From positions 64,001 to 89,804 of the IMG/VR virus record IMGVR_UViG_3300033143_004594: a stretch of DNA of 25,804 nucleotides. The stretch is one strand, 5' to 3'. Of the stretch, positions 3,036-25,804 are shown in pieces. The stretch is from a virus. A model generated the notes under the pieces. It had not been told where the DNA came from. It did not search any database and was given only the letters and a program-made list of their open reading frames with translations. Position numbers and translations under genes: made by a program. Position 1 is the first letter of the stretch, and each line of letters opens with the position of its first letter.

Positions 3036-3046
3036 ATTATCTCGCC

Positions 3047-3517: not shown

Positions 3518-3520
3518 GTG

Positions 3521-3799: not shown

Positions 3800-3810
3800 A
3801 GACTTCTCCT

Positions 3811-3840: not shown

Positions 3841-3843
3841 CTC

Positions 3844-3907: not shown

Positions 3908-3909
3908 AT

Positions 3910-4122
3910 CTATCCAATAAGTGAGGGGGGATCAACAGACATTATTCCCCGAGATGCTGGCCCGACAGACGCTTGCCGGGTCACTTGAAACCTTCCGTCA
4001 ATGACTTTGCCCTGAACCAGCTTTTTACATTGGCGACATTGTAACTGGACCTCGCTACCTTCCGTTGCCTGACCTCGGATGTGCTTGCAACCAGGACATC
4101 GACAATCAATATATATAGGCAT
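3910..4122 (-). CDS. Zinc-ribbon microprotein, Com-like
   Basis: A 70-residue protein with CRCPGC near residues 7-12 and CRQC near 29-32. Two cysteine pairs about 17 residues apart form a zinc ribbon. The layout resembles the Mu Com family, whose founding member is an RNA-binding translational activator, but similarity outside the cysteines is slight. The C-terminal 25 residues are unstructured and Pro/Ser/Gly-rich. It is the last gene before the promoter and terminator at 3811-3907. RNA or protein binding is likely; the target is unknown. Confidence 0.7.
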   Translation of the reverse strand: MPIYIDCRCPGCKHIRGQATEGSEVQLQCRQCKKLVQGKVIDGRFQVTRQASVGPASRGIMSVDPPSLIG

Positions 4123-4130
4123 GGCAATCC

Positions 4131-4466
4131 CTATTTCTTTGTCCGTTTTACCGGTCCTGGCTTGGCTTCCATCAGACTTGCCGGGATCGGGGGACGATGA
4201 CGCTGGAGTTCAACATCACCATCGCTACGAGCGACATAGGTAACGGTTTCGCTAATCTCTGGTTCGCCACTAAGGGCCTGAAGGCGACGATCCATCAGGT
4301 TCATGTAGACCAACCACTCCCCAACTGAATTTTGGAGCGTTGCTACAGTTCGTTTGAGTTCATCGATCTCGGCCTCAAGCTCGGGAATGCCCAACTCATC
4401 TCGCATCTCATCAACATCAAACGGGATCTCAATTTCCTGGGTCTGTTTAGAGTTCTTGGAAGTCAT
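4131..4466 (-). CDS. Coiled-coil protein, function unknown
   Basis: A 111-residue protein. I start it at ATG 4466 (MTSKNSKQTQEIEIPFDVDE), which has GAGG six nt upstream; earlier ATGs overlap the preceding gene further and are badly spaced. Residues about 25-60 (DELGIPELEAEIDELKRTVA) form a heptad-patterned coiled coil. The C-terminus is basic and Pro-rich (KPGPVKRTKK). It overlaps the upstream gene by 20 bp. Its place between the MuF-like protein and the capsid block suggests a small head or scaffold-related protein, but nothing identifies a family. Confidence 0.7.
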   Translation of the reverse strand: MTSKNSKQTQEIEIPFDVDEMRDELGIPELEAEIDELKRTVATLQNSVGEWLVYMNLMDRRLQALSGEPEISETVTYVARSDGDVELQRHRPPIPASLMEAKPGPVKRTKK

Positions 4467-4707
4467 TTTCATCCTCAACATTAACTCCCCCGATACTGAC
4501 AATAGCGAAGGAGTTCTTGAGCCGTCTCACCGGCTTGGGTTTATGGACACGTTTCTTTGCAATCTTCCGGGCAACACTTCTCATGATGCGCCCTTCTCTT
4601 TCAACCCTCTTTTTGTCAGCCATCATTTGACTAATACGGTGTACCCGAACAAGCCGATCTATGCGCTCTTGTTCCTTCTCGGCCTTAGATGGCGTCTGCT
4701 TGTTCAT
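4447..4707 (-). CDS. Very basic small protein, function unknown
   Basis: An 86-residue protein starting behind GGAGTGCT. Lys and Arg dominate residues 6-70 (KKRVEREGRIMRSVARKIAK and further KR-rich helix), followed by a short neutral and acidic tail ending in DENDFQEL. The charge pattern suits binding nucleic acid or an acidic partner such as the scaffold. It overlaps the MuF-like gene by 23 bp and the next gene by 20 bp, so the three are probably translated together. No family is recognised. Confidence 0.65.
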   Translation of the reverse strand: MNKQTPSKAEKEQERIDRLVRVHRISQMMADKKRVEREGRIMRSVARKIAKKRVHKPKPVRRLKNSFAIVSIGGVNVEDENDFQEL

Positions 4708-5545
4708 AGCACTCCATGTTAATATGATCGCCAGTGTCTTTCTCGAAGATTACCCGTGGACAGGACGCCCGTTCGATGCAAGTAGGGCAAGACTCCATAG
4801 CGGTCCTTATCCATTTGCATTCTATAGTATCCTCAGTCCGCATATATGACCAGTAACACCGGCATTTCATCAAGCACTCACTGGTAAAGTCCCCTGGATG
4901 CCGGGTTAAATTCAAGTTCTCATGTTGGGCCTTCATACGGCCCTGCTCGAAGTTGCTTAGGGCCGTATCAAAGTATAAGCCGGTCTCCCATGCGATCCAC
5001 GCCTCTGAGAGGTCGCCTGTCGCAATATTGTCTGCAAAGTCTGAGAGAAAACCGTATTGCCCCAAAAGATAGCCGTTCAAAAAGTTCCAATCAGCACTAG
5101 CCATCCTGTCGAACCCGCCCCGGCCGAAGGTGTATTGAATCACGGCCGAGTCCTGGATAGCCGACCTCATCCGAGTCTCAAAGATGGTTAGGGTAATGAA
5201 TCCAAGAAGAAGCAGCGCCAGGATATTAGTCCCCTCATCTTCTTTGGGTTTTTCTTCTTCTTCCAACGGCCACGCGGCAAAGTAATCGACCTGCCAATCT
5301 GAAATCTGATCCCGCAGCGCGATCATTTCTTCCTCATTCATTTCTTCGCCGGTCTCATCGCGCCGGTAAACCTTGTCCTCATCGTCCCACCACCAGCCCA
5401 TAAGGAGATGGCGGATCCCGAGTCGGTCTATGAGATTTTCATACTCTGGTCGTGTTGGCAAAGGGTTTTCAAAGGGCGGAGAAACCAGTTCCGGGGAAAC
5501 CGCACCCCCAATCCGGTATTTTCTCGGATCTCGGCCGTGGCTCAT
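4685..5545 (-). CDS. Minor head protein, MuF/SPP1 gp7-like (probable)
   Basis: A 286-residue protein. It is called from position (shortly after portal, before protease and capsid) and from the C-terminal half: a helical region with RMKAQHENLNLTRHPGDFTS, then ECLMKCRCYWSYM. Mu F-like head proteins commonly end in a short Cys-x-Cys-Trp element of this kind. A more C-terminal cysteine group (C in ECKW, CPTC, SCPR) may bind metal. A hydrophobic stretch at about residues 107-121 (NILALLLLGFITLTIF) could be membrane-like, which is unusual in this family. A few such proteins enter the head and are injected with DNA. The family call is inferred. Confidence 0.6.
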   Translation of the reverse strand: MSHGRDPRKYRIGGAVSPELVSPPFENPLPTRPEYENLIDRLGIRHLLMGWWWDDEDKVYRRDETGEEMNEEEMIALRDQISDWQVDYFAAWPLEEEEKPKEDEGTNILALLLLGFITLTIFETRMRSAIQDSAVIQYTFGRGGFDRMASADWNFLNGYLLGQYGFLSDFADNIATGDLSEAWIAWETGLYFDTALSNFEQGRMKAQHENLNLTRHPGDFTSECLMKCRCYWSYMRTEDTIECKWIRTAMESCPTCIERASCPRVIFEKDTGDHINMECYEQADAI

Positions 5546-5830
5546 TTATTCCACCGGGTAATCATCAGGCAATCTTTCGACAGACTCCCAGGTAAGACCG
5601 TCCCAAGATTGCATACGAAATACAGCAACAATGGTGTCATCGTGTTTCCGAAAATGTACTATTTTTTCTTGTGGACCACAAGAAGAATGAAAGTGAAGGC
5701 GTACATTAATTGGACAATCTAAACTGCCAAGACGCTCCATGTCCACCGGCTCGAAATCCTGCTCAGGAGTCGGCCGGTAAAATATTTTTGCGTTTTCCCT
5801 CTTAATCGTCACCCGGTTCGTCTTCGGCAT
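5546..5830 (-). CDS. Small protein between portal and MuF-like gene, unknown
   Basis: A 94-residue protein whose ATG lies 29 bp inside the portal 3' end, behind AAGGATCTGCTCG. It has mixed beta-type sequence (INVRLHFHSS, KIVHFRKHDDTIVAVFRMQS) and a Trp-rich C-terminal part (SWDGLTWESVERLPDD). The MQSWDGLTWESV stretch resembles small beta-barrel proteins that report on a bound polymer, but I do not recognise a family. It is translationally coupled to the portal and probably has a head or head-tail junction role. Confidence 0.6.
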   Translation of the reverse strand: MPKTNRVTIKRENAKIFYRPTPEQDFEPVDMERLGSLDCPINVRLHFHSSCGPQEKIVHFRKHDDTIVAVFRMQSWDGLTWESVERLPDDYPVE

Positions 5831-7979
5831 CGAGCAGATCCTTTTTGTCCTCGGGCGCTATGTCCTGCCAAGTGTCACGGGCCTCAGACTCAGCGCCATC
5901 AGCATCTAAATCAACTTCTTCTACACGGGGGAGCGGGTCGCCATCCACCTCGACCCCAAACGGCCGAAGCGTATTAGCATCCATCTGTCTCGGGTCAATG
6001 TGCGGGCCATCCCAATCAAATTTTATAAGAGCCATGGTCCCGGCAAATCCCACGATAGTCACAGGCGTCCCCTCAGCGGTCTTAGCCCTGTCTCCAACCT
6101 TAAAAGTGCCATGCCAAACGATTGTGCTACCCTCAATATCATAGGCGTAATGAATCCCATCAATGGGGTCTCCGGCAAACACATCAGGATTAACAAGTTC
6201 GCCCGGATCTTGTTTTATCATCAAGCACAGGCGAGACCCAGGTACAAGCATGGTATATTTGTTCTCGGTATGCACCCATACCCAATCGTTGTTGCCGCTC
6301 CAATGAAGGATTGTGCCCATTTCACCAGAGTCAAGGAACATAACATAGTTGCCAACTTTGTATATGCTTTCAAGGTTAGCGTCTAGTTCAAGGTCTGTTA
6401 AGGCCCGCCCGTTATACATCGGCCAATAAGTTTCCTCGACATCTTCCCCGGTCTTGGAATCCGGTTCGATGTCGTCATATGTTTCAGTTTCGGGGATCTC
6501 GATCCCAATATACCCTTCAAGCAACGCCCGAATTTCCTCTCTGGAGAAAACGGGATTGCCGGGGACCATCTGATTAGGCGCTTGGTTCATTCCGTTAAGG
6601 CGGGCGATAGCCTGTGACAGCTTGTCGGCCGAGTCGATTTGGTAGCGCCGGGTTCGGTCAGTTTTCCATATAACTTGAACTAACACCCGTGGCGGGGCCA
6701 TGTAATTCCAAACCATTTCAATTTGTGACCGCATGGCAGCTACGGCCGTCTCCGCCTCGATGCTGCTGGCGATGTCGCTTTGAGTCATCGCGCCTTCACC
6801 GAGCCGAACCTCAAGGTGGGTGACATTAAGGTGGAAGGCCGCGGCCAGCGCGTCAACCCATTCTTTCCGCCAACCCTCGGCCGTATACCCGGCCGGCGGT
6901 TCGCCCCACGGAAGCATAGCGATCTTGCTGTTTTCCCCACGGGATCCGCCAAAGAAAACGCCAGGATAGAAATACATCTCCTGACCTTCACGTTCTTCCT
7001 CATAGGCTTCTAGCTGATCCCTGAACTGAGTCGGATAGTCCAAGCCAGAGATCCAGACAACGCCGCGCATGGGCTGATTGATCAAATGTTCCCAATCTTG
7101 GCGCTCGATAGCCATATACTTGATCATGTAGGGCGAAAAGCGCCATGCCCCTGATTGGCCGAAGCCAGGATACATATCGTTACGGCCACCGGCCTGATTC
7201 AGGACCTGGAAACCATAATCACGGTGGATGAGCACCCACACAGCTTCTTTAAGGTCGCTGCTATATTTGCTTATCCAGTAAGGATATTCGGAATTGCCGG
7301 TAGGATAGCAGGTAAGGCCGTCCAGCATCCACAGCCCCTGATTTTCCCGGAAAGCCTCTTGCTCGGTTCTTAGAACAAACATGCGCTTTCCAGACTTATC
7401 AAGACCTGGGATCTGCTCGGCTTCCATCCCATATTGATCCCAATTGTCGAAAGGGATCTCTCCAATCGGCAACTGAGCACCTATAGCACCTCGGTTGTCA
7501 ACCATCAGCGCACCCATATATAGCTGTACGAATTTAGACGCTCCGAATTGGCTGTCCTGAGCACGAGCCATGAGGTCCAAAGTCTTTTTCACCGGAGAGG
7601 TCCGGCCGCGTACAGTTGAAATCCAAGTGCCGACCATAGCTTGGACCTTGGTAACGATTGTACTTAGTAGGGTATTTACAATTGGGGATGTGCCGGAATT
7701 CGCCATGTAGCCCTCGACGAGGGCTCTTGATAGCATGTCATCCATGCCACAGGCATAGGCCGGCCAAAAAGCAATACCCGTTTCCTCATCATGAGCCAAT
7801 ACTGTGCCAACTCCTGGCACATGGCTAACGACGCCTTGGGCTTTAACAAACCCTTTATTCACAGCATCGAAAGGATGAGGCAACATCTTACCAGGACCAT
7901 AACTTGCTGTCGGTACGTAGATACCTAGTGAGGGATCTAGTACAAATCCAGGAACATTAGGGTCACTTGTTAGAGCCAT
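5802..7979 (-). CDS. Portal protein with C-terminal beta-barrel-like extension
   Basis: A 725-residue protein. I use ATG 7979 (MALTSDPNVPG); the TTG six codons earlier falls beside the terminator U-tract. It is called portal from its size, its position after large terminase, and features such as YPGVFFGG, LPWGEPPAGYTAEGWRKEW and a long central helix (AMTQSDIASSIEAETAVAAM), as seen in portal stems and wings. It would form the dodecameric DNA gate at the capsid vertex. Residues about 540-588 (YKVGNYVMFLDSGEMGTIL...) and 627-675 (FKVGDRAKTAEGTPVTIVGF...) look like two SH3/KOW-type small barrels beyond the normal portal length, followed by an acidic tail. No ribosome site precedes the ATG. Confidence 0.8.
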   Translation of the reverse strand: MALTSDPNVPGFVLDPSLGIYVPTASYGPGKMLPHPFDAVNKGFVKAQGVVSHVPGVGTVLAHDEETGIAFWPAYACGMDDMLSRALVEGYMANSGTSPIVNTLLSTIVTKVQAMVGTWISTVRGRTSPVKKTLDLMARAQDSQFGASKFVQLYMGALMVDNRGAIGAQLPIGEIPFDNWDQYGMEAEQIPGLDKSGKRMFVLRTEQEAFRENQGLWMLDGLTCYPTGNSEYPYWISKYSSDLKEAVWVLIHRDYGFQVLNQAGGRNDMYPGFGQSGAWRFSPYMIKYMAIERQDWEHLINQPMRGVVWISGLDYPTQFRDQLEAYEEEREGQEMYFYPGVFFGGSRGENSKIAMLPWGEPPAGYTAEGWRKEWVDALAAAFHLNVTHLEVRLGEGAMTQSDIASSIEAETAVAAMRSQIEMVWNYMAPPRVLVQVIWKTDRTRRYQIDSADKLSQAIARLNGMNQAPNQMVPGNPVFSREEIRALLEGYIGIEIPETETYDDIEPDSKTGEDVEETYWPMYNGRALTDLELDANLESIYKVGNYVMFLDSGEMGTILHWSGNNDWVWVHTENKYTMLVPGSRLCLMIKQDPGELVNPDVFAGDPIDGIHYAYDIEGSTIVWHGTFKVGDRAKTAEGTPVTIVGFAGTMALIKFDWDGPHIDPRQMDANTLRPFGVEVDGDPLPRVEEVDLDADGAESEARDTWQDIAPEDKKDLLDAEDEPGDD

Positions 7980-7985
7980 GCGGAC

Positions 7986-8015
7986 AGTGTACCACAAAAA
8001 AACCCGCGCCGTAAA
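7986..8015 (-). promoter_or_regulatory. Possible promoter for leaderless portal mRNA
   Basis: On the minus strand TTTACG (8015-8010), an 18-nt spacer and TACACT (7991-7986) end seven bases before the A of the portal ATG. Transcription would begin at the start codon itself. The -35 lies inside the terminator hairpin, so the match may be accidental. It is listed because the portal gene has no Shine-Dalgarno site to explain its translation. Confidence 0.3.
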
Positions 8016-8032
8016 GTGTTACGACGCGGGTT
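7996..8032 (-). terminator. Strong intrinsic terminator before the portal gene
   Basis: Arms 8001-8014 and 8019-8032 pair over 13 of 14 positions (one mismatch, 8009/8024) around a 4-nt loop. On the minus strand this is followed by an unbroken run of T (7 in all, two within the stem). It ends the unit containing terL, the PAPS-reductase-like gene and two small genes, only about 20 nt before the portal start. Confidence 0.85.
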
Positions 8033-8073
8033 GGAAAGAGAAGTAGGCATGAACTACCCACTATTTAATCATT

Positions 8074-8271
8074 TTACGGCGATTCCCGAATGACCGCAAC
8101 AACGAAATGGCGGCTGCAATAAGTGACTTCTCCAGTTTCCTTGGTCTTTGCCTTACACTCAGGACACAACACTATTTTGCCCCGCGGAAGACCCTGATAA
8201 CCCGGTGGCTGAGAACCACATATAGCGTACATCTTTTGAAGTTCCCCAAGTGCAATTGATTTACTTTCCAT
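8074..8271 (-). CDS. Zinc-ribbon-like microprotein
   Basis: A 65-residue protein that overlaps the upstream membrane-protein gene by 11 bp. It contains a Cys at about residue 18 (YAICGSQPPGYQG), a CPEC pair at 36-39 and CSRH at 52-55, enough for one zinc site. The ribosome site is weak (AGGGG further upstream), so translation probably depends on the preceding gene. It is the last gene before the terminator at 7996-8032. Its function is unknown. Confidence 0.6.
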   Translation of the reverse strand: MESKSIALGELQKMYAICGSQPPGYQGLPRGKIVLCPECKAKTKETGEVTYCSRHFVVAVIRESP

Positions 8272-8806
8272 TATTCCGCTTTCCCCTGGCCGCAGCCAGC
8301 ACCAGCACGATCACCATTATCGAAATGATACCGGCAAGAAGAAACCACACAGCCAGGGTTATATCATCACTCTCGGCCGTGAAGCTGGTCAAAGTAATCG
8401 CGGTTGGCACAAGCGGGGTACACCATGTAATGTGGGAGATACCTTTACCATCAGACTGTATGAGGATCGGCTCGGCCGGGGTCTGAGGTGTCTTGGGCGG
8501 CTCATAAATGAAAAGCTGGTCTCCTTCTATGCCCGCTTTCATGAACGCGGCCGAGATGGGCACATCGAAATTATCTAGTTGAACAAACCATGTCACCATC
8601 CAAACCTCTTGATCGTCATTCCAGTTCATACCGCCAATGTCAATGTACTCCGCTCCATACTCGAAACCAACCTCAAAATCCTGTCCATCGTAGGCCGCGG
8701 GATCGTACTTGGCTACCTCTCCCATGCCGTTCGGACAATCCATAGGTGCAAGCGGCTCCGGATCCTGCAAAAATAAAAAGGCTAACAAAATCAATAATAG
8801 TTTCAT
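8261..8806 (-). CDS. Secreted/membrane-anchored protein, function unknown
   Basis: A 181-residue protein starting behind AAAGGAGAAGTGAC. The N-terminus MKLLLILLAFLFLQDPEP is a signal-peptide-like segment. About residues 15-145 would lie outside the cytoplasm: acidic, with Trp and Tyr, and beta-like (DQEVWMVTWFVQLDNFDVPI). Residues about 150-172 (AVWFLLAGIISIMVIVLVLA) form a transmembrane helix followed by a short basic tail (RGKRNNGK). This topology suggests exposure on the host envelope. It lies between the PAPS-reductase-like gene and the terminator, as moron-type cargo. Superinfection exclusion or host-surface change is possible but unsupported by homology. Confidence 0.75.
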   Translation of the reverse strand: MKLLLILLAFLFLQDPEPLAPMDCPNGMGEVAKYDPAAYDGQDFEVGFEYGAEYIDIGGMNWNDDQEVWMVTWFVQLDNFDVPISAAFMKAGIEGDQLFIYEPPKTPQTPAEPILIQSDGKGISHITWCTPLVPTAITLTSFTAESDDITLAVWFLLAGIISIMVIVLVLAAARGKRNNGK

Positions 8807-8818
8807 GTCACTTCTCCT

Positions 8819-9802
8819 TTATTCGCACATTCCTCTCATATCACAAGATAGGGTATCGTCATCGTCTAACCGATGAAACAACTCATACTGTCGAGCACCC
8901 CAAGCGGTTTTGGACCATGCAACAATATCCCGGATTGTTGCTACATTCATCTTTTCGCCATCGGCCGTAGTTATTTCTTTAGTCCGCCATCGCTCGGGCA
9001 CTGTTTTCCTGGCAAACATAGACGAAAACATATTAGAATTATCGCTAAAATAGCCTTCCTTTGACTCAATGAAGTCAATACGCTCAGGCCGGTAATGAGC
9101 AATCGCCCTGATTTCCCGTTTGGATGAATTGATGCAAGGAAAACACCCAACTCTCCTAGCCCCCATATCATACAGCGGGTTTCTTGGCACACCGGTTGTC
9201 CTAACCCTTTGGATTAACTCTAAACGGGTCGTTAATGGGACACCCTCATCATCCTTTATTATTTCAACAACGTCCTCAACATCCAAGTATTTACGGTGCG
9301 CTTCCCAAATATCATCTAAGGACCATTCATAAATTGGCAAAAACTTGTCACACCCGTAGGTGTCATCATAATGAAATTGGTCCAAGTCTCCCCGGTCATT
9401 TGCACTATGCCCCTCTGCTTTACGAATACCGCTAAGAGCCAGGACTTTCCCTTTTTCTTTTAGTTCTTCAATATGTTTCATGGACGGAATAACTTTCAAT
9501 ATCTGAGTGCAAAACCGTGCTCTCCTTGAAGGAAACCGTTTTTTCTTTCGGGCCAGTTCATAAAAGCCAATACCTGGATCAATTGTCTGGATCGGGAATA
9601 CACGCTCTGAGAGCATCGCCAGATAATTGTATGTCAACACATCCTCATTATCGGTGTCACAGAAAGTGGCGACTATTCTTGAAGTAGGCCACCCACTTTC
9701 ATAAATGAGCCATAACAAGGTCGCTGTGCTATCTTTTCCCCCACTGATCCCGATATGATAGACATCGTAGTCTAGGGGATCAAATTCTTCGGGTCTAATC
9801 AT
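8819..9802 (-). CDS. PAPS reductase / DndC-like PP-loop enzyme
   Basis: A 327-residue protein. The start is ATG 9802, forming an ATGA overlap with the terL stop and preceded by AAGGA. The PP-loop SGGKDST at residues 20-26 binds ATP or a sulfonucleotide. RFCTQILKVIP and the late VGCFPCINSSKREI match phage members of the PAPS-reductase superfamily. Two Cys pairs (CFPC and the C-terminal CDMRGMC) could hold an Fe-S cluster as in DndC. Possible roles are sulfate reduction, DNA phosphorothioation or tRNA/nucleotide thiolation; the sequence does not choose between them. Tight coupling to terL means it is made together with the packaging motor. Confidence 0.85.
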   Translation of the reverse strand: MIRPEEFDPLDYDVYHIGISGGKDSTATLLWLIYESGWPTSRIVATFCDTDNEDVLTYNYLAMLSERVFPIQTIDPGIGFYELARKKKRFPSRRARFCTQILKVIPSMKHIEELKEKGKVLALSGIRKAEGHSANDRGDLDQFHYDDTYGCDKFLPIYEWSLDDIWEAHRKYLDVEDVVEIIKDDEGVPLTTRLELIQRVRTTGVPRNPLYDMGARRVGCFPCINSSKREIRAIAHYRPERIDFIESKEGYFSDNSNMFSSMFARKTVPERWRTKEITTADGEKMNVATIRDIVAWSKTAWGARQYELFHRLDDDDTLSCDMRGMCE

Positions 9803-11481
9803 GCCTTTTTCCTTATTCCGCCCATCCAAGTGTTTTCCAAGGCGTATGATAACATGAGGGCTTCCATCTCATCGGGCGAAAAGGTCAGGCGCTTTCTCAT
9901 GATCTGTTTGGTAGTAACCCGTATCAGATTTTTTCCCGTAATTTCATAATCAACCGCCTTCAATGAATCGTGTAGGCGTCTACAGGCTTCGTTGTAGGTT
10001 TCTGGCGGGATGGCTATTTCACCCTTCCTGAAAACAGTTCTTAACGTCCAATATGACTCATCTCGAAGCTGGAAGAACTCAGCATAATCCGCTTCAACGC
10101 CGGCGGTCCCGCGGGCTGACTCGGCCACCATCACCCGGACAGCAACGATCCGCTTCCGGGGCGTCTGTCTCCGTCCCCACTTGACCATATTGCCGGGGGT
10201 GCCGGCCCCAACGCCTGTTGCATCAACCTTACACATCTTGGCATCACGCCTAATATACATCCTAGCTGCTTTATCGGCCGCATCTGATGGGTCTGAGTCT
10301 TTCCAAAGTTCAGGAACATCAACCCACATGCCATACCGGAAGCAAGCAGAGTGATGGTCAGGACCGAAGTCGGCCACATCCAGCCCCATAGTTGGCTGAA
10401 TCCCGGCCGGCGGGGTGACAATACCATCATGGGCCGCTCTCATCAGTTCCCATTTAGACACGGCCATATCTATCCACTCATCCCATATCAGCCGATCCAC
10501 TCCGCCAGGGGGGTATTGGCCGAGGACCTTATACCAAAACTGGTTGTCAATAACGACTCGTATACCTGGGAGAAGCGGCGGGATTATTGTCCCATCATTC
10601 ATTTTCCCGGTGACACCATAAAGAAACTCGGGTATTTCCCAACAAGTGCTATTAACGTCCATGTCCAGGGGCTTCGGTTCGGTCCATAGATGGATACGTT
10701 CAACCGTTTTGGCCCTAGTGACCGCGCCGGGGATTATATCTTCCCCTGTCAGCACATTCGGATGGTCCAGGGCGCTCATTTCGATGACTAAGGCCCGCCC
10801 CTCTTTTTCCCGGCGATATATTTCACCGGATTTTTTCTTGGGGTTGTAGCAAATAATTTGTCTTGCCATCCCGCCCGACATGCACCCGTCCATACCTTTA
10901 TAAACTGGGTCCGGGATTCCGTCTCCTTCATCGGCTTCAAACACGATTACAGGAGCATGTTTACCTGACCATTTGGTTTCTATATCCTCATCACTACTGG
11001 AAACGGGTATCGTAACTCCAGTTATGAACTCTTTTGGATGCCGGGTAATGAACATCGAAGCCCGGATGTCATCATCGGCAAACAATTCGGGGAATTCTTT
11101 TGTTAGGGAATAAATCTCAGCCCATAACAGGCGTTTCAAGTTGGCTTCTGGCGGGGCTGTGGTTGTGTAAACCTGAGAGCCGGGGTAAGCCTTATATATC
11201 CATATAGCTAACTGAGCCAGCCCGAAAGTTTTGCCTACACCCGTAGCCGATCTTATATGCACGATCTCAGTATCCCGGACCGCTTCGAGCATTTCCACCT
11301 GCTTAGACCACAGGGTAGCGCCTAAAACCTCACTGACAAAGCCAACCGGGTCATCCTGGTAAATCTCATAGTTCCCGGCCGCATCAGGATCGAGCCCCTG
11401 GACAATCCCATCCCTGAAAAGATCGCCTATGGAAGGCTTCTTAGCTTCTTGTTTTAGCCTTTCTAGCTCATTCTGTTTCAT
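9799..11481 (-). CDS. Terminase large subunit
   Basis: A 560-residue motor and nuclease that pumps DNA into the prohead through the portal. The ATPase has Walker A RSATGVGKT at 77-85 and Walker B VIVFEADEG at 178-186. The RNase H-like nuclease has MGLDVADFG (D368), CKVDATGVGAG (D420) and a C-terminal acidic residue in SPDEMEAL (D537). The length is normal for the family. The start ATG 11481 lacks a clear Shine-Dalgarno site and no other Met is near, so the start is slightly uncertain. It follows the HGG-motif protein, the Lar-like gene and their small neighbours, and its stop overlaps the next gene by ATGA. Confidence 0.95.
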   Translation of the reverse strand: MKQNELERLKQEAKKPSIGDLFRDGIVQGLDPDAAGNYEIYQDDPVGFVSEVLGATLWSKQVEMLEAVRDTEIVHIRSATGVGKTFGLAQLAIWIYKAYPGSQVYTTTAPPEANLKRLLWAEIYSLTKEFPELFADDDIRASMFITRHPKEFITGVTIPVSSSDEDIETKWSGKHAPVIVFEADEGDGIPDPVYKGMDGCMSGGMARQIICYNPKKKSGEIYRREKEGRALVIEMSALDHPNVLTGEDIIPGAVTRAKTVERIHLWTEPKPLDMDVNSTCWEIPEFLYGVTGKMNDGTIIPPLLPGIRVVIDNQFWYKVLGQYPPGGVDRLIWDEWIDMAVSKWELMRAAHDGIVTPPAGIQPTMGLDVADFGPDHHSACFRYGMWVDVPELWKDSDPSDAADKAARMYIRRDAKMCKVDATGVGAGTPGNMVKWGRRQTPRKRIVAVRVMVAESARGTAGVEADYAEFFQLRDESYWTLRTVFRKGEIAIPPETYNEACRRLHDSLKAVDYEITGKNLIRVTTKQIMRKRLTFSPDEMEALMLSYALENTWMGGIRKKA

Positions 11482-11509
11482 GAAATAGTGTGTCCACTTC
11501 TATCCGCAA

Positions 11510-11707
11510 TCATAGTAATGCCCCTTCTGTCTTCGGCGCATCTGTAACATTGTTCCAGTTTTTAATCGCCCATGCCTTGCTTGGTGACAATATGCCCGAC
11601 TTACCACAGCGACACCTTACAAACCATTCTATCACGAAGAAATCTTCCTCAAGGGTTTTTATCTCTGGCATCTTGCCACAGGAGCAACATTTCATTTTAG
11701 GCATCAT
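11510..11707 (-). CDS. Lar-like restriction alleviation protein
   Basis: A 65-residue zinc-ribbon protein with CCSC at 7-10, then FVRCRCGKSG at 29-37 and a C-terminal AIKNWNN (47-53). This order matches the Lar family (Cys pair, WxV-x-C..CG, then AI..WN), which in the Rac prophage modulates type I restriction. The second pair is CxC rather than CxxC. It starts behind AGGGGGCGCTGCT and lies 28 bp upstream of terL. Anti-restriction is a family-based inference; many phage Lar-like proteins are untested. Confidence 0.75.
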   Translation of the reverse strand: MMPKMKCCSCGKMPEIKTLEEDFFVIEWFVRCRCGKSGILSPSKAWAIKNWNNVTDAPKTEGALL

Positions 11708-11764
11708 AGCAGCGCCCCCTGTTGGTAAAACCCGAGCGCAAGGGGCGACTGGGTATTCAGCATG

Positions 11765-11890
11765 TCATTCACAATCGCACGGATAGCACTCGCAACACGG
11801 GCAATAATAAACGACATAATACCGCGGGGGGTCATAGTATAAATAAAGATAAATCAGGACCGCGATCCAAAAACCCATGCAAAGAAACAT
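11765..11890 (-). CDS. Cysteine-tailed single-pass membrane microprotein
   Basis: A 41-residue protein starting at ATG 11890 behind AAGGGGGACTAAA; a start 66 nt earlier would overlap the preceding gene much more. Residues 1-19 (MFLCMGFWIAVLIYLYLYY) are a transmembrane helix. The C-terminal tail, YYCPCCECYPCDCE, has six cysteines in 14 residues and looks like a metal-binding or disulfide knot. A lipid-anchored or redox-active envelope peptide is possible. It belongs to no family I know. Confidence 0.65.
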   Translation of the reverse strand: MFLCMGFWIAVLIYLYLYYDPPRYYVVYYCPCCECYPCDCE

Positions 11891-11891
11891 T

Positions 11892-12140
11892 TTAGTCCCC
11901 CTTCTTACGCCCCTTCTCATATTCACGTAAATTCTTGGGCCACATACCCAACGCATACCACCGGCCGATAGCTTGGCTCATAGTCAACTCTGTATCTGGA
12001 CCATCACCCGGCCACTGTTCGGCCGTCACCTCATGCTGTACCCGTATCAACACGAAGTAAACCAAGTCACGAGGCATTAACCCTGCCGTGGCCCGAAGCA
12101 ACTTTACTACCATTTTCCTGTAAGCACTTTGATTACCCAT
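11892..12140 (-). CDS. Small basic protein, function unknown
   Basis: An 82-residue protein whose start overlaps the stop of the HGG-motif gene as TAATG, so it is translationally coupled. It is probably all-helical: basic N-terminal half (RKMVVKLLRATAGLMPRDLV), a central acidic part (QWPGDGPDTELT) and a basic C-terminal tail (REYEKGRKKGD). It lies between the HGG-motif protein and the Cys-tailed peptide upstream of terL, so a packaging accessory role is possible. No family is recognised. Confidence 0.65.
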   Translation of the reverse strand: MGNQSAYRKMVVKLLRATAGLMPRDLVYFVLIRVQHEVTAEQWPGDGPDTELTMSQAIGRWYALGMWPKNLREYEKGRKKGD

Positions 12141-13315
12141 TATTCTTCCTCATCCACAATATCGGCTTCAATCAACTTCGGACCTTTCTTACCTGCCATC
12201 TGGCCTTGCATCTCTCTAAGAAATTCATTCCTGATCCTGACAGGAGATGAGTTCTCTAGCTTGCCATTAAGAGCCAACGTCCAAATATAGTTAGCCGCGG
12301 CCGTGGCTGCATCCCGGATGCCAACCAACATCTCTTGCTGGAGCATATACATCTCCTGAACGGAGATGCTTTGCTGAGCATCAACAATGCGCTTACGCTC
12401 AGCGTCTGTCAGCCGTCCTATCCTGGTTGTTATCTTTCCAAACTCATCCCAACGCCGGTAATCGTCAATAGCTGAGCCCATGAGTTCTTTAATGTCTATG
12501 GTAGCCAAATGAATACGGGCGAAATTATCCTCAGCCAGGGCGCTTTCAATCTCTGCTACAGCCCGCCCCATTCCCGCGGCAATAACCATATAATCCGTAT
12601 CACCCATCTGGCTCATCAGCTGGGCATTTCGAGCAGCCAGAGCCGCGATCTCAGGCGCTACGGATAGATAATTCTCATCTGTCACCGCCTCAATATACAT
12701 TTCTCGAAGCTGACCGTTAAGCATCTCGCCGTATACTTTGAGCCGGCCGGAAGCCTTTTTCCCGTCTCGAAATGCGCCAACAATATGCTTTCCACCATGA
12801 ACCCCACATCGACCAGAGGCAATAGGAGTACGGTTGCAAAAGCGACGGGCAACGCCACATTTCGGACAATACATAATCCCCGGTCCTGCATAAGGCGTCC
12901 GGCAATTCTCGCCGTCTATCGTGGCTCGACACTGTTTTATGAGTGACCCACACACTTTCTTGCCAGCCGGAGCAAACATCCCTTCATAGAACCCCATGAT
13001 TTCCTGAGCAGCCAAATATTCATAATCCTTCAGGAAGCCGCGCATGTATTGAAAAAACCGTTTCATATCCGTCTTGAACGCTTGGGATTCTTCCAATAGG
13101 GGACGATGATACCGGGCCAGCGCCCGCTCCAGATTGTCTACCAATTCAAGGACATGCTCAGTGTCCAGGTCAAGTTCAAAAAGAGCCCATCTAAGCGCAT
13201 CGGCCGCAGCATCAGGATCGTATCTTTCAAGCAATACCACGGCCTTGTCGAGCAAGTCCCAATCTTCTTCTGGCAGCTTCGCAGCTAACTCCGCAATTTC
13301 TTGTGAGGTACTCAT
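12140..13315 (-). CDS. HGG-motif zinc protein in small-terminase position
   Basis: A 391-residue protein. I start it at ATG 13315, which forms ATGA with the upstream stop; an earlier in-frame start would lie inside that gene. Residues 1-110 are helical and acidic. Residues 120-175 hold many Cys (C122, C129, C138, C150, C153, C160, C170) and SGRCGVHGGKHIVG (168-180). The C...RCxxHGG element occurs in phage proteins next to large terminases that seem to act as small-terminase-like DNA recognisers. The rest is long helices with DAERKRIVDAQQSISVQEMY. A role in pac/cos recognition is inferred from motif and position. It is unusually large for a small terminase. Confidence 0.55.
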   Translation of the reverse strand: MSTSQEIAELAAKLPEEDWDLLDKAVVLLERYDPDAAADALRWALFELDLDTEHVLELVDNLERALARYHRPLLEESQAFKTDMKRFFQYMRGFLKDYEYLAAQEIMGFYEGMFAPAGKKVCGSLIKQCRATIDGENCRTPYAGPGIMYCPKCGVARRFCNRTPIASGRCGVHGGKHIVGAFRDGKKASGRLKVYGEMLNGQLREMYIEAVTDENYLSVAPEIAALAARNAQLMSQMGDTDYMVIAAGMGRAVAEIESALAEDNFARIHLATIDIKELMGSAIDDYRRWDEFGKITTRIGRLTDAERKRIVDAQQSISVQEMYMLQQEMLVGIRDAATAAANYIWTLALNGKLENSSPVRIRNEFLREMQGQMAGKKGPKLIEADIVDEEE

Positions 13316-13557
13316 AATAATTCCAATGCCATCTGCTTTTGCCGCGGCTGTAGTGGCCAGAGCCACCCATTTTTAGTAAATATATCGAACATATAGAGTA
13401 TCACGATTGGATGATCATTCTCCCAAATAGCATACATAGTATCCATATATTTGATGCCTTCATCCTCGGTATATTTGAGAGCCTGATAGAAATCAGAAAA
13501 TGTCGGATCGTCATCTTGGGGATAATCTACTGCACCTACTCGATACTTGTTTGCCAT
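13312..13557 (-). CDS. Small acidic protein, function unknown
   Basis: An 81-residue protein. The start is ATG 13557 (MANKYRVGAVDYPQDDD), with GGGAG about 9 nt upstream; starting earlier would overlap the preceding gene by 70 bp. It is acidic and aromatic (FSDFYQALKYTEDEGIKYMD, then IVILYMFDIFTKNGWLWPLQ), suggesting a small alpha/beta fold. It is ATGA-coupled to the HGG-motif protein downstream, so both are made in fixed ratio. No family is recognised. Confidence 0.65.
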   Translation of the reverse strand: MANKYRVGAVDYPQDDDPTFSDFYQALKYTEDEGIKYMDTMYAIWENDHPIVILYMFDIFTKNGWLWPLQPRQKQMALELL

Positions 13558-13561
13558 TTCG

Positions 13562-13837
13562 CTATACTCCCAATGCTTTGAATACTTCTTCTCGGGTTGG
13601 CACTTCCGGCCCATTGAACCGCTCATTAACAAAGTTAATTTGCGCCTCAGTTAGTTCCACTCGGCCGAGGTACACATGATCTTGCTTCCCGCCTCTGTTA
13701 GCCGCTAAGGGATTGCGACGGCGAAGCTGGCTATATGGACCGTGGGGCCGATCTTCCTTGCTTTTCCGGCAGGTCGGGCAATTCCCACAGTTTCGGTATG
13801 TTATTTGCTGAGTCCAATGTCCTAATCCTGCCATCAT
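13562..13837 (-). CDS. DUF6788-like Cys-rich protein
   Basis: A 91-residue protein; the start is ATG 13837, with AAGGA six nt upstream (a TTG two codons earlier has no support). YRNCGNCPTCRKSK (C17, C20, C23) is followed by PHGPYSQLRRR (H32-GPY), then a YLGRVELTEAQ segment and a helix. This order (CG..CxC, HGPY, R-rich, Y[LV]G[KR]) is that of DUF6788-type proteins, which are small, metal-binding and often phage- or transposon-linked. Their function is unknown. It sits in the packaging block, right after the HNH endonuclease. Confidence 0.65.
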   Translation of the reverse strand: MMAGLGHWTQQITYRNCGNCPTCRKSKEDRPHGPYSQLRRRNPLAANRGGKQDHVYLGRVELTEAQINFVNERFNGPEVPTREEVFKALGV

Positions 13838-13839
13838 GG

Positions 13840-14394
13840 TCAATCCTTTATAAAGTTTTGTTCTGGATCAATGTAGTCCGCTTTTTTCCAGGTTGGAAAA
13901 GTTAAAGGCCCTTCGAGGGCCAGTAATTCGCTCATCCGTTCTACTACTTCCTGCCGGCTGAGAGATTCGCCAAGGTAACGATGAGCGTAAAACCCGGCCG
14001 CATAGGGCTTAAACCACTCCGAGTGTTCAAACATCGCCCACGGCCGGAACATATTCACCTTCGCTTGAATAATGAGATGGCAAACCTGACACAAAGCCGT
14101 TAGATTCCACCATTGAAGATTCCACTTGTTACCGTCCAGGTGATGGACCGTAAGAACCCGCTGCTTTTGGCCGCTCACCCAATCTAGGCGAAGTTCCGCC
14201 GTCCCGTCCTCATTATCTATATGTTCTACACCCCGGATCTCAGGATGACGCACGAGGTCACATTTCATATCACACTTAATATGATGACCAGGGTTCTCAT
14301 GAGGATGCTTGCAACGAATACAACGCCATCCGGCATCTTCTTTTACCTGGGTAGCAACGTCCTTCCAGTTAGGCGGATATTCTGCTTTGGGCAT
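13840..14394 (-). CDS. HNH endonuclease, packaging-associated
   Basis: A 184-residue protein starting behind AAGGAGAAGTAG. N-terminal CIRCKH (C25, C28) and later CDMKC suggest a zinc site. The HNH core is TVHHLDGNKWNLQWWNLTAL with H84/H85, D87, N89 and N97, then CQVCH (C102, C105, H106). In HK97-like and other cos phages an HNH protein next to terminase is needed to cut concatemers before packaging. Its place just upstream of the HGG protein and terL supports that job here; a homing enzyme is the alternative, but nothing shows insertion. Confidence 0.85.
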   Translation of the reverse strand: MPKAEYPPNWKDVATQVKEDAGWRCIRCKHPHENPGHHIKCDMKCDLVRHPEIRGVEHIDNEDGTAELRLDWVSGQKQRVLTVHHLDGNKWNLQWWNLTALCQVCHLIIQAKVNMFRPWAMFEHSEWFKPYAAGFYAHRYLGESLSRQEVVERMSELLALEGPLTFPTWKKADYIDPEQNFIKD

Positions 14395-14700
14395 CTACTT
14401 CTCCTTCTGGCTGTTGACGGGACCTAAATAAGACCCGCCCAAATCCCATTTCTGTTGCTGATAGATACCGAACCTATGTTCTACATCGCCATTCGCCTTG
14501 ATCTTGCCTGATTGGGCCAGGAATTGAAGGATACCAAAAATAGGCATGAAGCTATGTGCGCTGATCGGTCCTACGAAATGAATAAAATTAACTTGATAAG
14601 TACCTTTTCCGCCGATCTGCTCTTGCTCTAAAAACCTGTATTCTGGTCTTTCATCCATAGGCTTAGCTGTTTTATCAAACCACTGTTTGCGATCTTTCAT
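14395..14700 (-). CDS. Small protein opening the packaging operon, unknown
   Basis: A 101-residue protein starting behind AAAGGAGATTT. It is the first gene after the extended -10 promoter and hairpin leader at 14719-14792. It is basic overall with aromatic, beta-like runs (GTYQVNFIHFVGPISAHSF, then FGIYQQQKWDLGGSYLGPV). Its stop abuts the HNH start codon. Being first in the unit suggests an early or regulatory role for the packaging genes, but no domain is recognised. Confidence 0.65.
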   Translation of the reverse strand: MKDRKQWFDKTAKPMDERPEYRFLEQEQIGGKGTYQVNFIHFVGPISAHSFMPIFGILQFLAQSGKIKANGDVEHRFGIYQQQKWDLGGSYLGPVNSQKEK

Positions 14701-14718
14701 AAATCTCCTTTAATAAAT

Positions 14719-14775
14719 GGCCCGGCCGGGGTCTCCTGTGTGCTACACATGGGGGATGGATAAACCAACCGGGCC
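14719..14775 (-). other. Stable 11-bp stem at the 5' end of the packaging transcript
   Basis: In the minus-strand RNA, GGCCCGGUUGG at the 5' side pairs with CCGGCCGGGCC at the 3' side (11 bp, two G.U). A ~35-nt loop holds a small UGUG-UAG-CACA hairpin. It begins about where transcription should start (near 14777) and ends before the ribosome site AAAGGAG. There is no U-tract, so it is not a terminator. It probably stabilises the mRNA or controls the first gene. Confidence 0.7.
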
Positions 14776-14783
14776 ACATAAAT

Positions 14784-14792
14784 ACTATATCA
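14784..14792 (-). promoter_or_regulatory. Extended -10 promoter
   Basis: TGATATAGT on the minus strand: TG one base before TATAGT (14789-14784), the extended -10 element of sigma70-type promoters. There is no good -35 at 17 nt, as is usual for this type. It lies in the only gene-free gap of this area, upstream of the hairpin leader and the packaging genes. Confidence 0.5.
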
Positions 14793-14800
14793 TACTATGG

Positions 14801-15415
14801 CTAGTCGCTGATATGAGGTAGCTCCTTGTCCGGCTGGATGAGGTCACTAATCTCTTCTTCCTCGGCCAGCTTCTCTTTCTCAATCCACGGGGGGGTATTC
14901 GCTAACGACATATCAAAAATCTCGCAGCCCTGTCTTAACACTGATGCCTTTTTTGCCAAGTCCCATGCAACCTGATACCGAACACCGGTATGCCGAAAAT
15001 CTGGTTGGAAAAAGTCATCTGGCATTTCATACTCGACAGGGGCGACGACAACAAGGTTATGGACATATGACTCTATGACTTTATATCTTATTCCCGCATA
15101 ATACTTTGGCGGTTGCCCGTGGGCTTCCAGGGCTAAATCGATCTCTGTCTGAACGGTCAGCTTTGCCCTGTCCAACAGATCATCCCGGACCGCATGAGGA
15201 TCATAGAATCTAGTGGAAGCAATTGACCCATCGGGGTTTTGGGTAATCGTTTCCTGAGCAACGTACTCGACATCCAATCGGACGTTACAATAATCCCCTA
15301 CGCTGACCGTTTCACCGTACTTGACGGTGATCCTCTCAACGAGATCGGGTAAAGGCACAGCCAAAGGATTGTTAGTCGGACCTTGAACGCCAGTATCACC
15401 TTGAGGACTACTCAT
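14801..15415 (-). CDS. Phage protein with N-terminal beta strand motif, unknown
   Basis: A 204-residue protein; ATG 15415 is preferred (AAAGGA eight nt upstream), with a GTG one codon earlier possible. After a disordered N-terminus, ERITVKYGETVSVGDYCNVR resembles phage proteins with an I.V.YG.T[VI]..G.[FY] opening, whose function is unknown. The C-terminal part is helical and acidic (EKEKLAEEEEISDLIQPDKE). It is the last gene before the packaging promoter and overlaps the small membrane-protein gene by 8 bp. Confidence 0.65.
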   Translation of the reverse strand: MSSPQGDTGVQGPTNNPLAVPLPDLVERITVKYGETVSVGDYCNVRLDVEYVAQETITQNPDGSIASTRFYDPHAVRDDLLDRAKLTVQTEIDLALEAHGQPPKYYAGIRYKVIESYVHNLVVVAPVEYEMPDDFFQPDFRHTGVRYQVAWDLAKKASVLRQGCEIFDMSLANTPPWIEKEKLAEEEEISDLIQPDKELPHISD

Positions 15416-15551
15416 CACACACGTCCTTTAGCCGCTTGACCACAATGGCTCGATGAGCCTGAGCGGTGCGAACTCGATGCACGATCTCAATGCCCAAGAT
15501 CGTGAACACGAGACAGCTAAACGCCACTGTCAATATTGTTGTTTGGTTCAT
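15408..15551 (-). CDS. 47-residue single-pass membrane protein
   Basis: A short gene with a strong AAAGGAG site 6-7 nt before ATG 15551. It overlaps the previous gene by 35 bp and the next by 8 bp. Residues 4-22 (TTILTVAFSCLVFTILGIE) form one transmembrane helix, followed by a basic, helical tail (HRVRTAQAHRAIVVKRLK) that would face the cytoplasm. Its size and topology would fit a holin-like or accessory membrane peptide, but no lysis gene lies beside it, so the role is open. Confidence 0.6.
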   Translation of the reverse strand: MNQTTILTVAFSCLVFTILGIEIVHRVRTAQAHRAIVVKRLKDVCDE

Positions 15552-15972
15552 GCCTTACTCCTTTGCCTCTTTCCGAGACCTCAAAAATTGGAAACAGTTT
15601 CCAATCAATATCACACTCAGCCGCTATATGAAAATAAATGGGTTCAATCTCAAATTCCAGTCGACTTATCTTGTTTACCCACGCCTCAGTTAGCCTTATA
15701 TTCTTAATGGTACAAACCAATTCACCAGCATAGGGGTTGTCTAACAAGCCTATCGGAACGTGCCGGATCTCAATATGGCCCTGGTCGATATTCTGCACCC
15801 ACTCGAAGGCCGCAGAACTGCATCTGAAAATGACGTAAGGGGATTTCCCGCCACGCCACATGAGCCGGTGAATGCCAAGCATATCCCACATGGGCTCTAT
15901 TCTCTCATCAGGACGATGCCAGAAAACACACATATGGTTAGCCATCATGGGCTGTTCAATCGGTTTCATCAT
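15517..15972 (-). CDS. Unknown protein, mixed alpha/beta
   Basis: A 151-residue protein starting behind AAGAGGTATTAG, overlapping the upstream gene by 17 bp. It has many Trp, His and Cys residues and beta patterns (YVIFRCSSAAFEWVQNIDQG, then RLEFEIEPIYFHIAAECDID). The end (HEPNNNIDSGV) is less ordered and lies over the ribosome site of the next gene. Nothing shows a catalytic motif and no family is recognised. Confidence 0.65.
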   Translation of the reverse strand: MMKPIEQPMMANHMCVFWHRPDERIEPMWDMLGIHRLMWRGGKSPYVIFRCSSAAFEWVQNIDQGHIEIRHVPIGLLDNPYAGELVCTIKNIRLTEAWVNKISRLEFEIEPIYFHIAAECDIDWKLFPIFEVSERGKGVRHEPNNNIDSGV

Positions 15973-16243
15973 CTAATACCTCTTGTTCTAATTTTTCCGC
16001 TTCCGGTAACGGAGTCTCCATCATCTCGATCAGGTCCACAACAACACCGGCCGGTGTCCCGTTCGCCAACAGTCGCTTAACCTTATCCAGGATGTGATAA
16101 GACCGAAGCAACGACTCATGAAGTTTCATGCTCTGTATTTTAGATAGCATGATAAGATCAATCTCAAATGGATTACACTTACCCATGTACTCAACCGGCC
16201 GTAATACAGTTTTCATACCCCGGATCTCATCAAAATCATTCAT
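15956..16243 (-). CDS. Small helical protein, unknown
   Basis: A 95-residue protein with AAGGA 8 nt before ATG 16243. It is helical throughout (NPFEIDLIMLSKIQSMKLHE, then SYHILDKVKRLLANG) with a very acidic C-terminus (LPEAEKLEQEVLDDETD). It overlaps its neighbours by 8 and 17 bp, so the run of three genes is probably translated as one. No family is recognised. Confidence 0.65.
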   Translation of the reverse strand: MNDFDEIRGMKTVLRPVEYMGKCNPFEIDLIMLSKIQSMKLHESLLRSYHILDKVKRLLANGTPAGVVVDLIEMMETPLPEAEKLEQEVLDDETD

Positions 16244-24658: not shown

Positions 24659-24903
24659 GCTAACCCCCTTATCTCCGCTTCGATCTCCTGGATTTGTCGT
24701 TTGAGACCGCGGGCCTCAAATTCGATTAATTCCAGTTCTTCTTTCATATCTGGTAGTTTTTTACGAAGTTCGGCCAGTTTTTCAGCATTTTCGGCCTTTT
24801 TTCGGTCGTTTTTCAGCACTTCCACAGCTTCATCAGAACCGAAATGAAGCCGCGTCATAGCGGAACAAAAATCAATTGTTTCGTCGGTCTGATGTTTAGC
24901 CAT
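24655..24903 (-). CDS. Coiled-coil protein, unknown
   Basis: An 82-residue protein behind GGGGGGATA. Residues about 30-80 (KNDRKKAENAEKLAELRKKL, then MKEELELIEFEARGLKRQIQ) are an almost unbroken coiled coil. Its place next to a winged-helix protein suggests a dimeric accessory protein. No family is recognised. Confidence 0.7.
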   Translation of the reverse strand: MAKHQTDETIDFCSAMTRLHFGSDEAVEVLKNDRKKAENAEKLAELRKKLPDMKEELELIEFEARGLKRQIQEIEAEIRGLA

Positions 24904-25201
24904 TATCCCCCCGCCGTTTTACCTCTCCATAGGTCTTTTGCTCCCACTCCTGGAAAGTGGCAATGGTTGTTGGGGTGACTTCCAGCGCACCGCCAGGAAG
25001 CCGATCCAGCACTCCGCGCCGGCCGAGTCTACGCAAACACCTTCGAGCGCCATTGTCAATGTTGTCCCGGTGCGGGAAGGCGGTCGTGGGCACTACCCGG
25101 TCCCCCACATAGTAAAACTTGTCGAAAAGCCTCTCTAAGGCTCTCCCCTGTGCGGCCGTGATCTCGATTTTTGTAAGCTGCTCCGCTTCATCTCTGTCCA
25201 T
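24896..25201 (-). CDS. Winged-helix-like protein, first gene of operon
   Basis: A 101-residue protein; the start is ATG 25201, behind GGAAGGAG. It is the first gene after the 490-nt leader. Residues about 15-70 (AAQGRALERLFDKFYYVGDR, then GARRCLRRLGRRGVLDRLPG) look like a winged-helix unit with an arginine-rich recognition helix. It probably regulates the leftward operon or binds its leader. A start nine codons earlier lies in the leader hairpin and has no ribosome site. Confidence 0.7.
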   Translation of the reverse strand: MDRDEAEQLTKIEITAAQGRALERLFDKFYYVGDRVVPTTAFPHRDNIDNGARRCLRRLGRRGVLDRLPGGALEVTPTTIATFQEWEQKTYGEVKRRGDNG

Positions 25202-25221
25202 TTCGCTACTCCTTCCTAATA

Positions 25222-25287
25222 CCCCCATATGTGGCCCTGGCTGAGCCTAAACCCGCGTTTTGGGCCGGCCGTGTCTACATATGGGGG
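25222..25287 (-). repeat. 11-bp inverted repeat next to the ribosome site
   Basis: Arms 25222-25232 (CCCCCATATGT) and 25277-25287 (ACATATGGGGG) pair perfectly around 44 nt. It ends about six nt before the SD of the first gene, so it can control access of the ribosome to it. Confidence 0.7.
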
Positions 25288-25301
25288 GTCTGGTGCGGCT
25301 T

Positions 25302-25342
25302 GTAGTAACTACAATAGCATCGTCCAACCTTCAAGTTACTAC
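25302..25342 (-). repeat. 9-bp inverted repeat with an alternative hairpin
   Basis: Arms 25302-25310 (GTAGTAACT) and 25334-25342 (AGTTACTAC) pair perfectly. The first arm also forms a local stem with its neighbour (TGTAG TAA CTACA at 25301-25313), so the two folds exclude each other, as in a riboswitch or attenuator. Confidence 0.6.
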
Positions 25343-25472
25343 CCGTTGCCCGGATTCCACAGGTCGTCCACCGTCACCTTGTACCGTGTCTTGCGGCTCA
25401 GCTATTAGCCGATTAAAAGCCGTGTCCTGCGGCCGGCCGGTGTTCCGCGTCTCCTTCTCCTACCTTGTTAAA

Positions 25473-25523
25473 GCAGGTCCGGCCGTTCCCCCGCGCCCTA
25501 AGCACAAGGACTACCGGACCTGC
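25473..25523 (-). repeat. 10-bp inverted repeat
   Basis: Arms 25473-25482 (GCAGGTCCGG) and 25514-25523 (CCGGACCTGC) pair perfectly around a 31-nt loop. The stem is GC-rich and stable. It has no terminator U-tract on either strand. Confidence 0.75.
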
Positions 25524-25596
25524 GAGGTTTAACCTACCGCACCGTAAAGGGCTGTTTTATATGGTCGTCACGCTTCGACCTATACTTTTGTTAAAG

Positions 25597-25687
25597 AATC
25601 GCCCTGGACAATAATTCTACTTATCCCTGATTGCTCATCAACGTGCGGGTCAATTCGCAATACCTTATATATGGTGCCAGGGCGATT
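25597..25687 (-). repeat. 11-bp inverted repeat at the transcript 5' end
   Basis: Arms 25597-25607 (AATCGCCCTGG) and 25677-25687 (CCAGGGCGATT) pair perfectly around 69 nt. The outer arm begins only a few bases after the predicted transcription start near 25690, so it seals the 5' end of the RNA. Confidence 0.75.
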
Positions 25688-25696
25688 ACGCTTTCT

Positions 25697-25725
25697 ATAA
25701 TATCAGATGTTATAGTGTTGGTCAA
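25697..25725 (-). promoter_or_regulatory. Strong sigma70-type promoter for the leftward operon
   Basis: On the minus strand, TTGACC (25725-25720), a 17-nt spacer and TATTAT (25702-25697), with TG one base before the -10 (extended -10). Each hexamer matches consensus at five of six positions and the spacing is ideal. Transcription should start near 25690. It is the only strong promoter in the 600-nt region before the early genes. Confidence 0.7.
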
Positions 25726-25746
25726 GGGCAAAGCTGCACAGGCTTG

Positions 25747-25804
25747 AGCTATATGGCTCAGCTGGGGGGGCTTGGGATCTCGTCACCCATTTTAGGCTAT
25801 CGAA
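25747..25804 (+). other. tRNA-like fold, cut by the window edge
   Basis: GCTCAGCTGG matches a D-arm, with stem GCTC/GGGC. A 4-of-5 bp anticodon-like stem (25773-25777 with 25785-25789) and a T-loop-like ATCGAA follow at tRNA spacing. Against a working tRNA: position 33 is C, not T, position 37 is a pyrimidine and one stem pair is missing. The 3' acceptor is outside the window. It may be a decayed tRNA or a tRNA-like part of the adjacent RNA. Confidence 0.25.

Follow-up and report, generated by a model that had tools for sequence, protein, structure and literature searches.

In phage HK022, putL is located just downstream of PL, and put RNA is ~70 nt long, consists of two stem-loops, and is present in both early transcripts (PMC9378689). 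The boxA element of gammaproteobacteria has the consensus GYTCTTTAANA (PMC5725501). GOLLD and ROOL RNAs are often encoded close to tRNA islands in phages, and RNAs of this type form a homo-oligomeric RNA-only complex (PMC12286853). Here, we describe a gene-free region of a phage genome that resembles each of these systems in some respects and that we read, with a probability of roughly 0.6, as being transcribed into a structured leader whose action, by whatever mechanism, is in cis.

Genome context and control region

The window analyzed (25,804 nt) comprises positions 64001 to 89804 of an 89,804-base virus record; coordinates refer to the window unless given as record positions. Since the last 41 bases of the record are the same as its first 41 (a 41-bp end repeat) and a second assembly, IMGVR_UViG_3300033153_008361, runs uninterrupted across the join, the genome is considered circular (~89.76 kb) and the end of the window an arbitrary cut. 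The two assemblies have two single-base differences in aligned sequence, neither within the leader region. Genes for SSB, an O-like initiator, DnaB, integrase, methyltransferase, and structural proteins, together with a terminase recognized by its relatives, indicate a temperate tailed phage. Relatives of the terminase are found in Salinibacter phages (36%) and in MAG contigs, mostly deltaproteobacterial (34 to 42%).

The region had been predicted to be gene-free, and it is: no coding signal was found at 25202 to 25763, and an independent gene call placed no gene in it. Open reading frames inside 25202 to 25763 scored -0.28 to +0.03 bits per codon versus +0.13 ± 0.09 for the small genes of this genome, and hidden small genes were rejected on the basis of these low scores. 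The gene-free stretch extends past the artificial cut to record position 692, forming a divergent control region of ~1.25 kb whose left half is the region described here, at the head of a co-directional array. The strong extended -10 promoter of the original prediction was confirmed on the minus strand at 25725 to 25697 (TTGACC-17-TATTAT, with TG at the extended -10). This PL-like promoter, with a predicted start at ~25690, is among only five sites scoring at least 11 in the ~89.8-kb genome, and the ~490 nt from it to the leading gene of the leftward array carry no coding signal. A dyad read from the sequence across the -10 region, CTATAA-N9-TTATAG (25695 to 25715), may be an operator. A second, divergent promoter is located at record 597 to 626, with the rightward array starting behind it at record 692. 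The rightward leader is only ~60 nt, with one 6-bp hairpin and without boxA-like sites or a domain similar to those described below. One of the only two base differences between the assemblies, at record 630, adjoins the -10 element (621 to 626) of the rightward promoter. On the transcribed strand, the GC skew of the leftward leader equals that of the genes (0.141 each), and its sign flips upstream of the leftward promoter.

Inverted repeats and folding of the region

Four perfect inverted repeats (11, 10, 9, and 11 bp) had been reported in the region, and exactly those four were recovered, at 25597-25607/25677-25687 (11 bp), 25473-25482/25514-25523 (10 bp), 25302-25310/25334-25342 (9 bp), and 25222-25232/25277-25287 (11 bp). 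Their summed length of 41 bp, compared with a shuffle mean of 1.2, was reached by 0 of 2000 shuffles, and elsewhere in the genome comparable repeat density was seen only in a low-vocabulary block at record 1 to 5 kb. In the transcribed sense, the leader plus the gene start folds at -189.6 kcal/mol versus -170.2 ± 6.1 for shuffled leaders (1 of 300 as low), and the ~490-nt RNA from the promoter has a folding z of about -3.2 to -3.8 versus shuffles. The composition-corrected fold energy is extreme versus dinucleotide shuffles but ordinary versus genic windows of the genome (z = -0.95), and the perfect repeats are a firmer signal than overall folding energy. The antisense strand folds about equally well (z of -3.8 and -4.2 for the two strands); strand asymmetry of folding was rejected as proof of an RNA because it is not significant (54 of 400 shuffles). 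The fold alone does not prove an RNA. An RNA is the better reading given the promoter, the position of the region, and the transcribed-strand skew.

It is unlikely that the region is a long control region with no special function, in which the repeats are remnants or chance occurrences, some of them perhaps operators. The ordinary composition-corrected energy would fit such an explanation, as would the block at record 1 to 5 kb, which demonstrates that inverted repeats can arise in this genome through an unrelated process. The shuffle result for repeat content argues against it, and the vocabulary of the neighboring block is not common to the region; spill-over from that block was rejected on an 8-mer sharing of 0.077 versus a background of 0.093. 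No more likely, in our view, is that the repeats act at the DNA level, as a replication origin or as a site of single-strand initiation, packaging, or recombination. Cumulative GC skew around the circular genome reaches its minimum inside the region, at 25642, and both the equal folding of the two strands and the stronger plus-strand fold of hairpin H4 (see below) would suit a DNA element. However, a change in skew also accompanies every divergence of gene direction, and a minimum is likewise expected at any divergent promoter pair. The repeat arms are 23 to 69 nt apart, which is closer to RNA stems than to the dyads of binding sites. The repeat search yielded no iteron-like direct repeats, and the O-like initiator and DnaB genes are located at record 23 to 25 kb.

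Predicted structure of the leader

Read as a transcribed leader, the region would form a series of minus-strand domains. The first repeat had been placed within a few bases of the predicted RNA 5′ end, in agreement with a first domain, P1, that begins ~3 nt after the predicted start. P1 (25597 to 25687) is predicted to be a single 91-nt multi-way junction closed by the 11-bp perfect stem AAUCGCCCUGG/CCAGGGCGAUU (pair probability, 0.96; z = -3.54, matched by 0 of 500 shuffles). A predicted long-range helix between the 5′ arm GGUGCGGU (25536 to 25543) and the 3′ arm GCCGCACC (25292 to 25299) would close domain II, with a pair probability of 0.99. Hairpin H2 (25473 to 25523) has the 10-bp perfect stem GCAGGUCCGG/CCGGACCUGC (pair probability of H2, 0.99; z = -6.2; 0 of 500 shuffles), prolonged by a 10-bp apical helix that contains G-U. 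The middle arm, CCGCAGG/CCUGUGG (25350 to 25436), is weaker (z = -1.85) and includes two of three RGACACGG repeats. Hairpin H3 (25302 to 25342) has the 9-bp perfect stem GUAGUAACU/AGUUACUAC (pair probability, 0.98; z = -2.5), and H4 (25222 to 25287) has the 11-bp perfect stem CCCCCAUAUGU/ACAUAUGGGGG (pair probability, 0.95). H4 is located just upstream of the Shine-Dalgarno sequence of the first gene and folds even better on the plus strand. The three RGACACGG copies in the leader, at ~25418 to 25425, 25382 to 25389, and 25268 to 25275, are borderline by chance. A long-range switch pairing of GCCCUGGC (25676 to 25683) with 25234 to 25241 was also considered and rejected, as 8 bp are expected by chance at this length.

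The Shine-Dalgarno core GAAGG (25211 to 25215) is predicted to pair with CCUUU at 25546 to 25550 (pair probability, 0.92), and this helix would stack on the long-range helix and on H4, which ends 6 nt upstream of the paired core. Such an arrangement, including the high probability of the GGUGCGGU/GCCGCACC helix, would be compatible with translational control, in which the fold hides the Shine-Dalgarno sequence of the first gene until a protein, a ligand, or temperature opens it. We consider this rather unlikely, since pairing this strong was equaled in 25 of 300 shuffled leaders, only the first 101-aa gene would be controlled unless coupling extended the effect, and a simple Shine-Dalgarno switch needs no 490 nt.

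Downstream boundary and leftward array

The leader is bounded downstream by the first gene of the array (24896 to 25201, minus strand), which encodes a 101-aa protein with no family match and an unreliable structure model (pLDDT, 45). Its start codon is at 25201 to 25199, behind a good Shine-Dalgarno sequence, GGAAGGAG. A search of the minus strand from the promoter to this gene revealed no intrinsic terminator; UAUUAGGAAGGAG, rather than a U-run, lies 3′ of the last leader stem, and the gene then follows. With no terminator ahead of the first gene, the RNA is best interpreted as a 5′ leader, most simply that of a very long transcription unit. The array is entirely on the minus strand from record 89.2 to 30.3 kb (~59 kb). 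Six terminator-like hairpins are located inside it, at record 72030, 67844, 63478, 55548, 51813, and 49709, the first strong one being that near record 72.0 kb.

Comparison with known RNA classes and search for homologs

The original prediction was of a large structured phage RNA, possibly of the GOLLD or ROOL class, beside a tRNA-like fold. That the region is transcribed into a structured RNA is the best interpretation, but membership in either class is unsupported. The Rfam search that had been proposed as a check gave no match to GOLLD, ROOL, OLE, introns, or tmRNA at the gathering or a relaxed threshold. The GOLLD, ROOL, and OLE covariance models were absent among hits up to E = 10 for 25100 to 25804 and among hits at the gathering threshold for the window, and group I/II introns, tmRNA, and riboswitches were likewise ruled out by the lack of an Rfam match. 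The tRNA-like fold does not correspond to a tRNA: ARAGORN detected neither tRNA nor tmRNA anywhere in the genome, and Rfam detected no tRNA up to E = 10. The leader resembles GOLLD and ROOL in being phage encoded, several hundred nucleotides long, and multi-stemmed (PMC12286853) and differs from them in lacking a covariance-model match, a nearby tRNA, homologs, and an independent 3′ end.

Homologs were sought through protein neighbors, terminase and capsid profiles, an RNA pattern, phage and plasmid BLAST, and 38 related records. Among viral contigs, phage and plasmid collections, and these 38 records, only the near-identical assembly of the same virus was found. Inverted repeats in the divergent gap of one distant relative were rejected as not equivalent (24% GC, partly palindromic, near-gene promoter). 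We regard as improbable a stand-alone, trans-acting large RNA of a new class that works like GOLLD or ROOL and is processed from the leader. Its size, multi-domain fold, predicted 5′ multi-way junction, and strong promoter would be in keeping with such an RNA, but it has no terminator or evident 3′ end and reads through into a gene with its own good Shine-Dalgarno sequence, and it has no Rfam match, no tRNA island, and no counterpart found in other viruses.

boxA- and boxB-like sites

The repeat finder detected a 9-mer, CUUUAACAA, twice in the leader in the RNA sense, at 25588 to 25596 and 25465 to 25473. These are the only two copies on that strand of the genome, one at the 3′ foot of P1 and the other at that of H2, both strong stems. 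The likeness to boxA was noticed post hoc, after this repeat had been seen. Putative site 1, AUUCUUUAACA (25588 to 25599, minus strand, 3′ foot of P1), matches GYTCTTTAANA at 10 of 11 positions, with A in place of the consensus G1, and putative site 2, CUGCUUUAACAA (25465 to 25476, minus strand, 3′ foot of H2), matches at 9 of 11. A site with at most one mismatch to this consensus was present in 91 of 5000 leader shuffles, and two copies of CTTTAACA in one leader were present in 0 of 5000. Five CTTTAACA sites occur in the genome, of which only site 1 is followed by a 5-bp hairpin; a perfect match to GYTCTTTAANA occurs nowhere in it. Comparison with the longer E. coli rrn boxA 12-mer was discarded, as 9 of 12 matches (3 mismatches) are at chance level, and the basis of the candidate boxA assignment is the shorter published consensus together with the two copies of CUUUAACAA. 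Among genomes with a related terminase, the only 16S leader that could be read, which need not reflect the host of the phage, has GCTCTTTGGAAA instead of CTTTAACA.

The order of site 1 followed by a 5-bp hairpin resembles a nut arrangement and provides a lead. As in lambda-type nut and rrn boxA, the candidate CUUUAACA core comes early in the transcript and is mostly single stranded in the predicted fold, and as in lambda nut, a small hairpin is predicted 8 nt downstream of the core. This boxB-like hairpin, GGUCG-(8)-CGACC (25563 to 25580, minus strand; pair probability, 1.0), has 5 bp and an 8-nt loop, whereas the loop of lambda boxB is a pentaloop. Unlike nut and rrn boxA, the leader is ~490 nt long and has two sites, each behind a large stem, with A at G1 of the first, and no N-like protein was identified in the phage. 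Like HK022 put, it is a structured RNA right after a left early promoter, heading a long operon, but here a predicted multi-way junction makes up the first domain, with nothing comparable in the ~60-nt right leader; the put combination of ~70 nt, two stem-loops, and presence in both early transcripts was not found here.

At less than even odds, boxA/nut-like processive antitermination is the leading candidate for how the leader works. RNA polymerase would start at ~25690 on the left transcript of the temperate phage, and the nascent RNA would fold at once into P1. The boxA-like CUUUAACAA and the small boxB-like hairpin would be exposed next, followed by H2 with the second CUUUAACAA and then the rest of the leader. 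Probably together with Nus-type factors of the host, and perhaps with a phage protein as well, the leader would modify the polymerase, which could then read through the terminators of the ~59-kb array. Speaking for this reading are the strong promoter directly ahead of the leader, the absence of a gene in it and of a terminator at its end, the excess of perfect stems and their high pair probabilities, the folding energy relative to shuffles, the one-strand array with terminator-like hairpins inside it, the two CUUUAACAA sites at stem feet, the hairpin after site 1, and the transcribed-strand skew. Arguing against antitermination are the lack of homologs, the post hoc recognition of boxA and the missing G1 of its match, the chance-level match to the rrn 12-mer, the GCTCTTTGGAAA of the readable 16S leader, the lack of an N-like protein, a right leader without such sites, a length far beyond that of put (~70 nt) or nut, folding that is not strand specific, and a composition-corrected energy that is ordinary for this genome. 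It is quite unlikely that the leader represents a new class, in which a ~490-nt multi-domain phage RNA, alone or with Nus factors, makes polymerase processive over ~59 kb; such an RNA would be built of repeated modules of a strong stem plus CUUUAACAA. Should antitermination prove correct, the leader would be related to nut and put elements but much larger and of different construction, governing tens of kilobases in a phage lineage that has no cultured member known here. Should it act otherwise, it would still be an orphan structured leader, invisible to current RNA libraries. The repeated occurrence of a stem with CUUUAACAA is an architecture that offers concrete, testable mutations.

Other features of the genome

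Across the join from window position 25804, record 42 to 16000 is extremely low-vocabulary DNA, both coding and noncoding, rich on both strands in words such as GCGGACCGCC, AGAAGCGG, GAGATC, and CTGTGTC. The distinct 6-mer fraction of this block is 0.45 versus 0.78 in shuffles (z = -24), with a smooth recovery over ~16 kb, and GATC declines along it from 22 to 27 per kb to about 5. Vocabulary is normal on the window side of the join, and the word bias is a one-sided gradient starting at the early control region. BLAST gave no match to the block in the phage collection. Very repetitive DNA is also found in a 1498-aa open reading frame at record 57331 to 61827 (distinct 6-mer fraction down to 0.22), within which the second assembly is cut open.

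A two-copy cassette (113 of 114 positions identical) is located on the minus strand at window 3797 to 3910 and record 51766 to 51879. Each copy has the order promoter (TTGACA-18-TATACT), terminator (GGAGCGCCACC-ATTA-GGTGGCGTTTTTTG), Shine-Dalgarno sequence, and gene. The cassettes look like promoter-attenuator units for late genes and are perhaps targets of a Q-like antiterminator. In the right array, a repeated leader, CTTTACAAGGAGTAAAGCGATAATG, occurs at gene starts at record 1190 to 2290, with the Shine-Dalgarno sequence AAGGA in the loop of a 6-bp hairpin, CTTTAC/GTAAAG.
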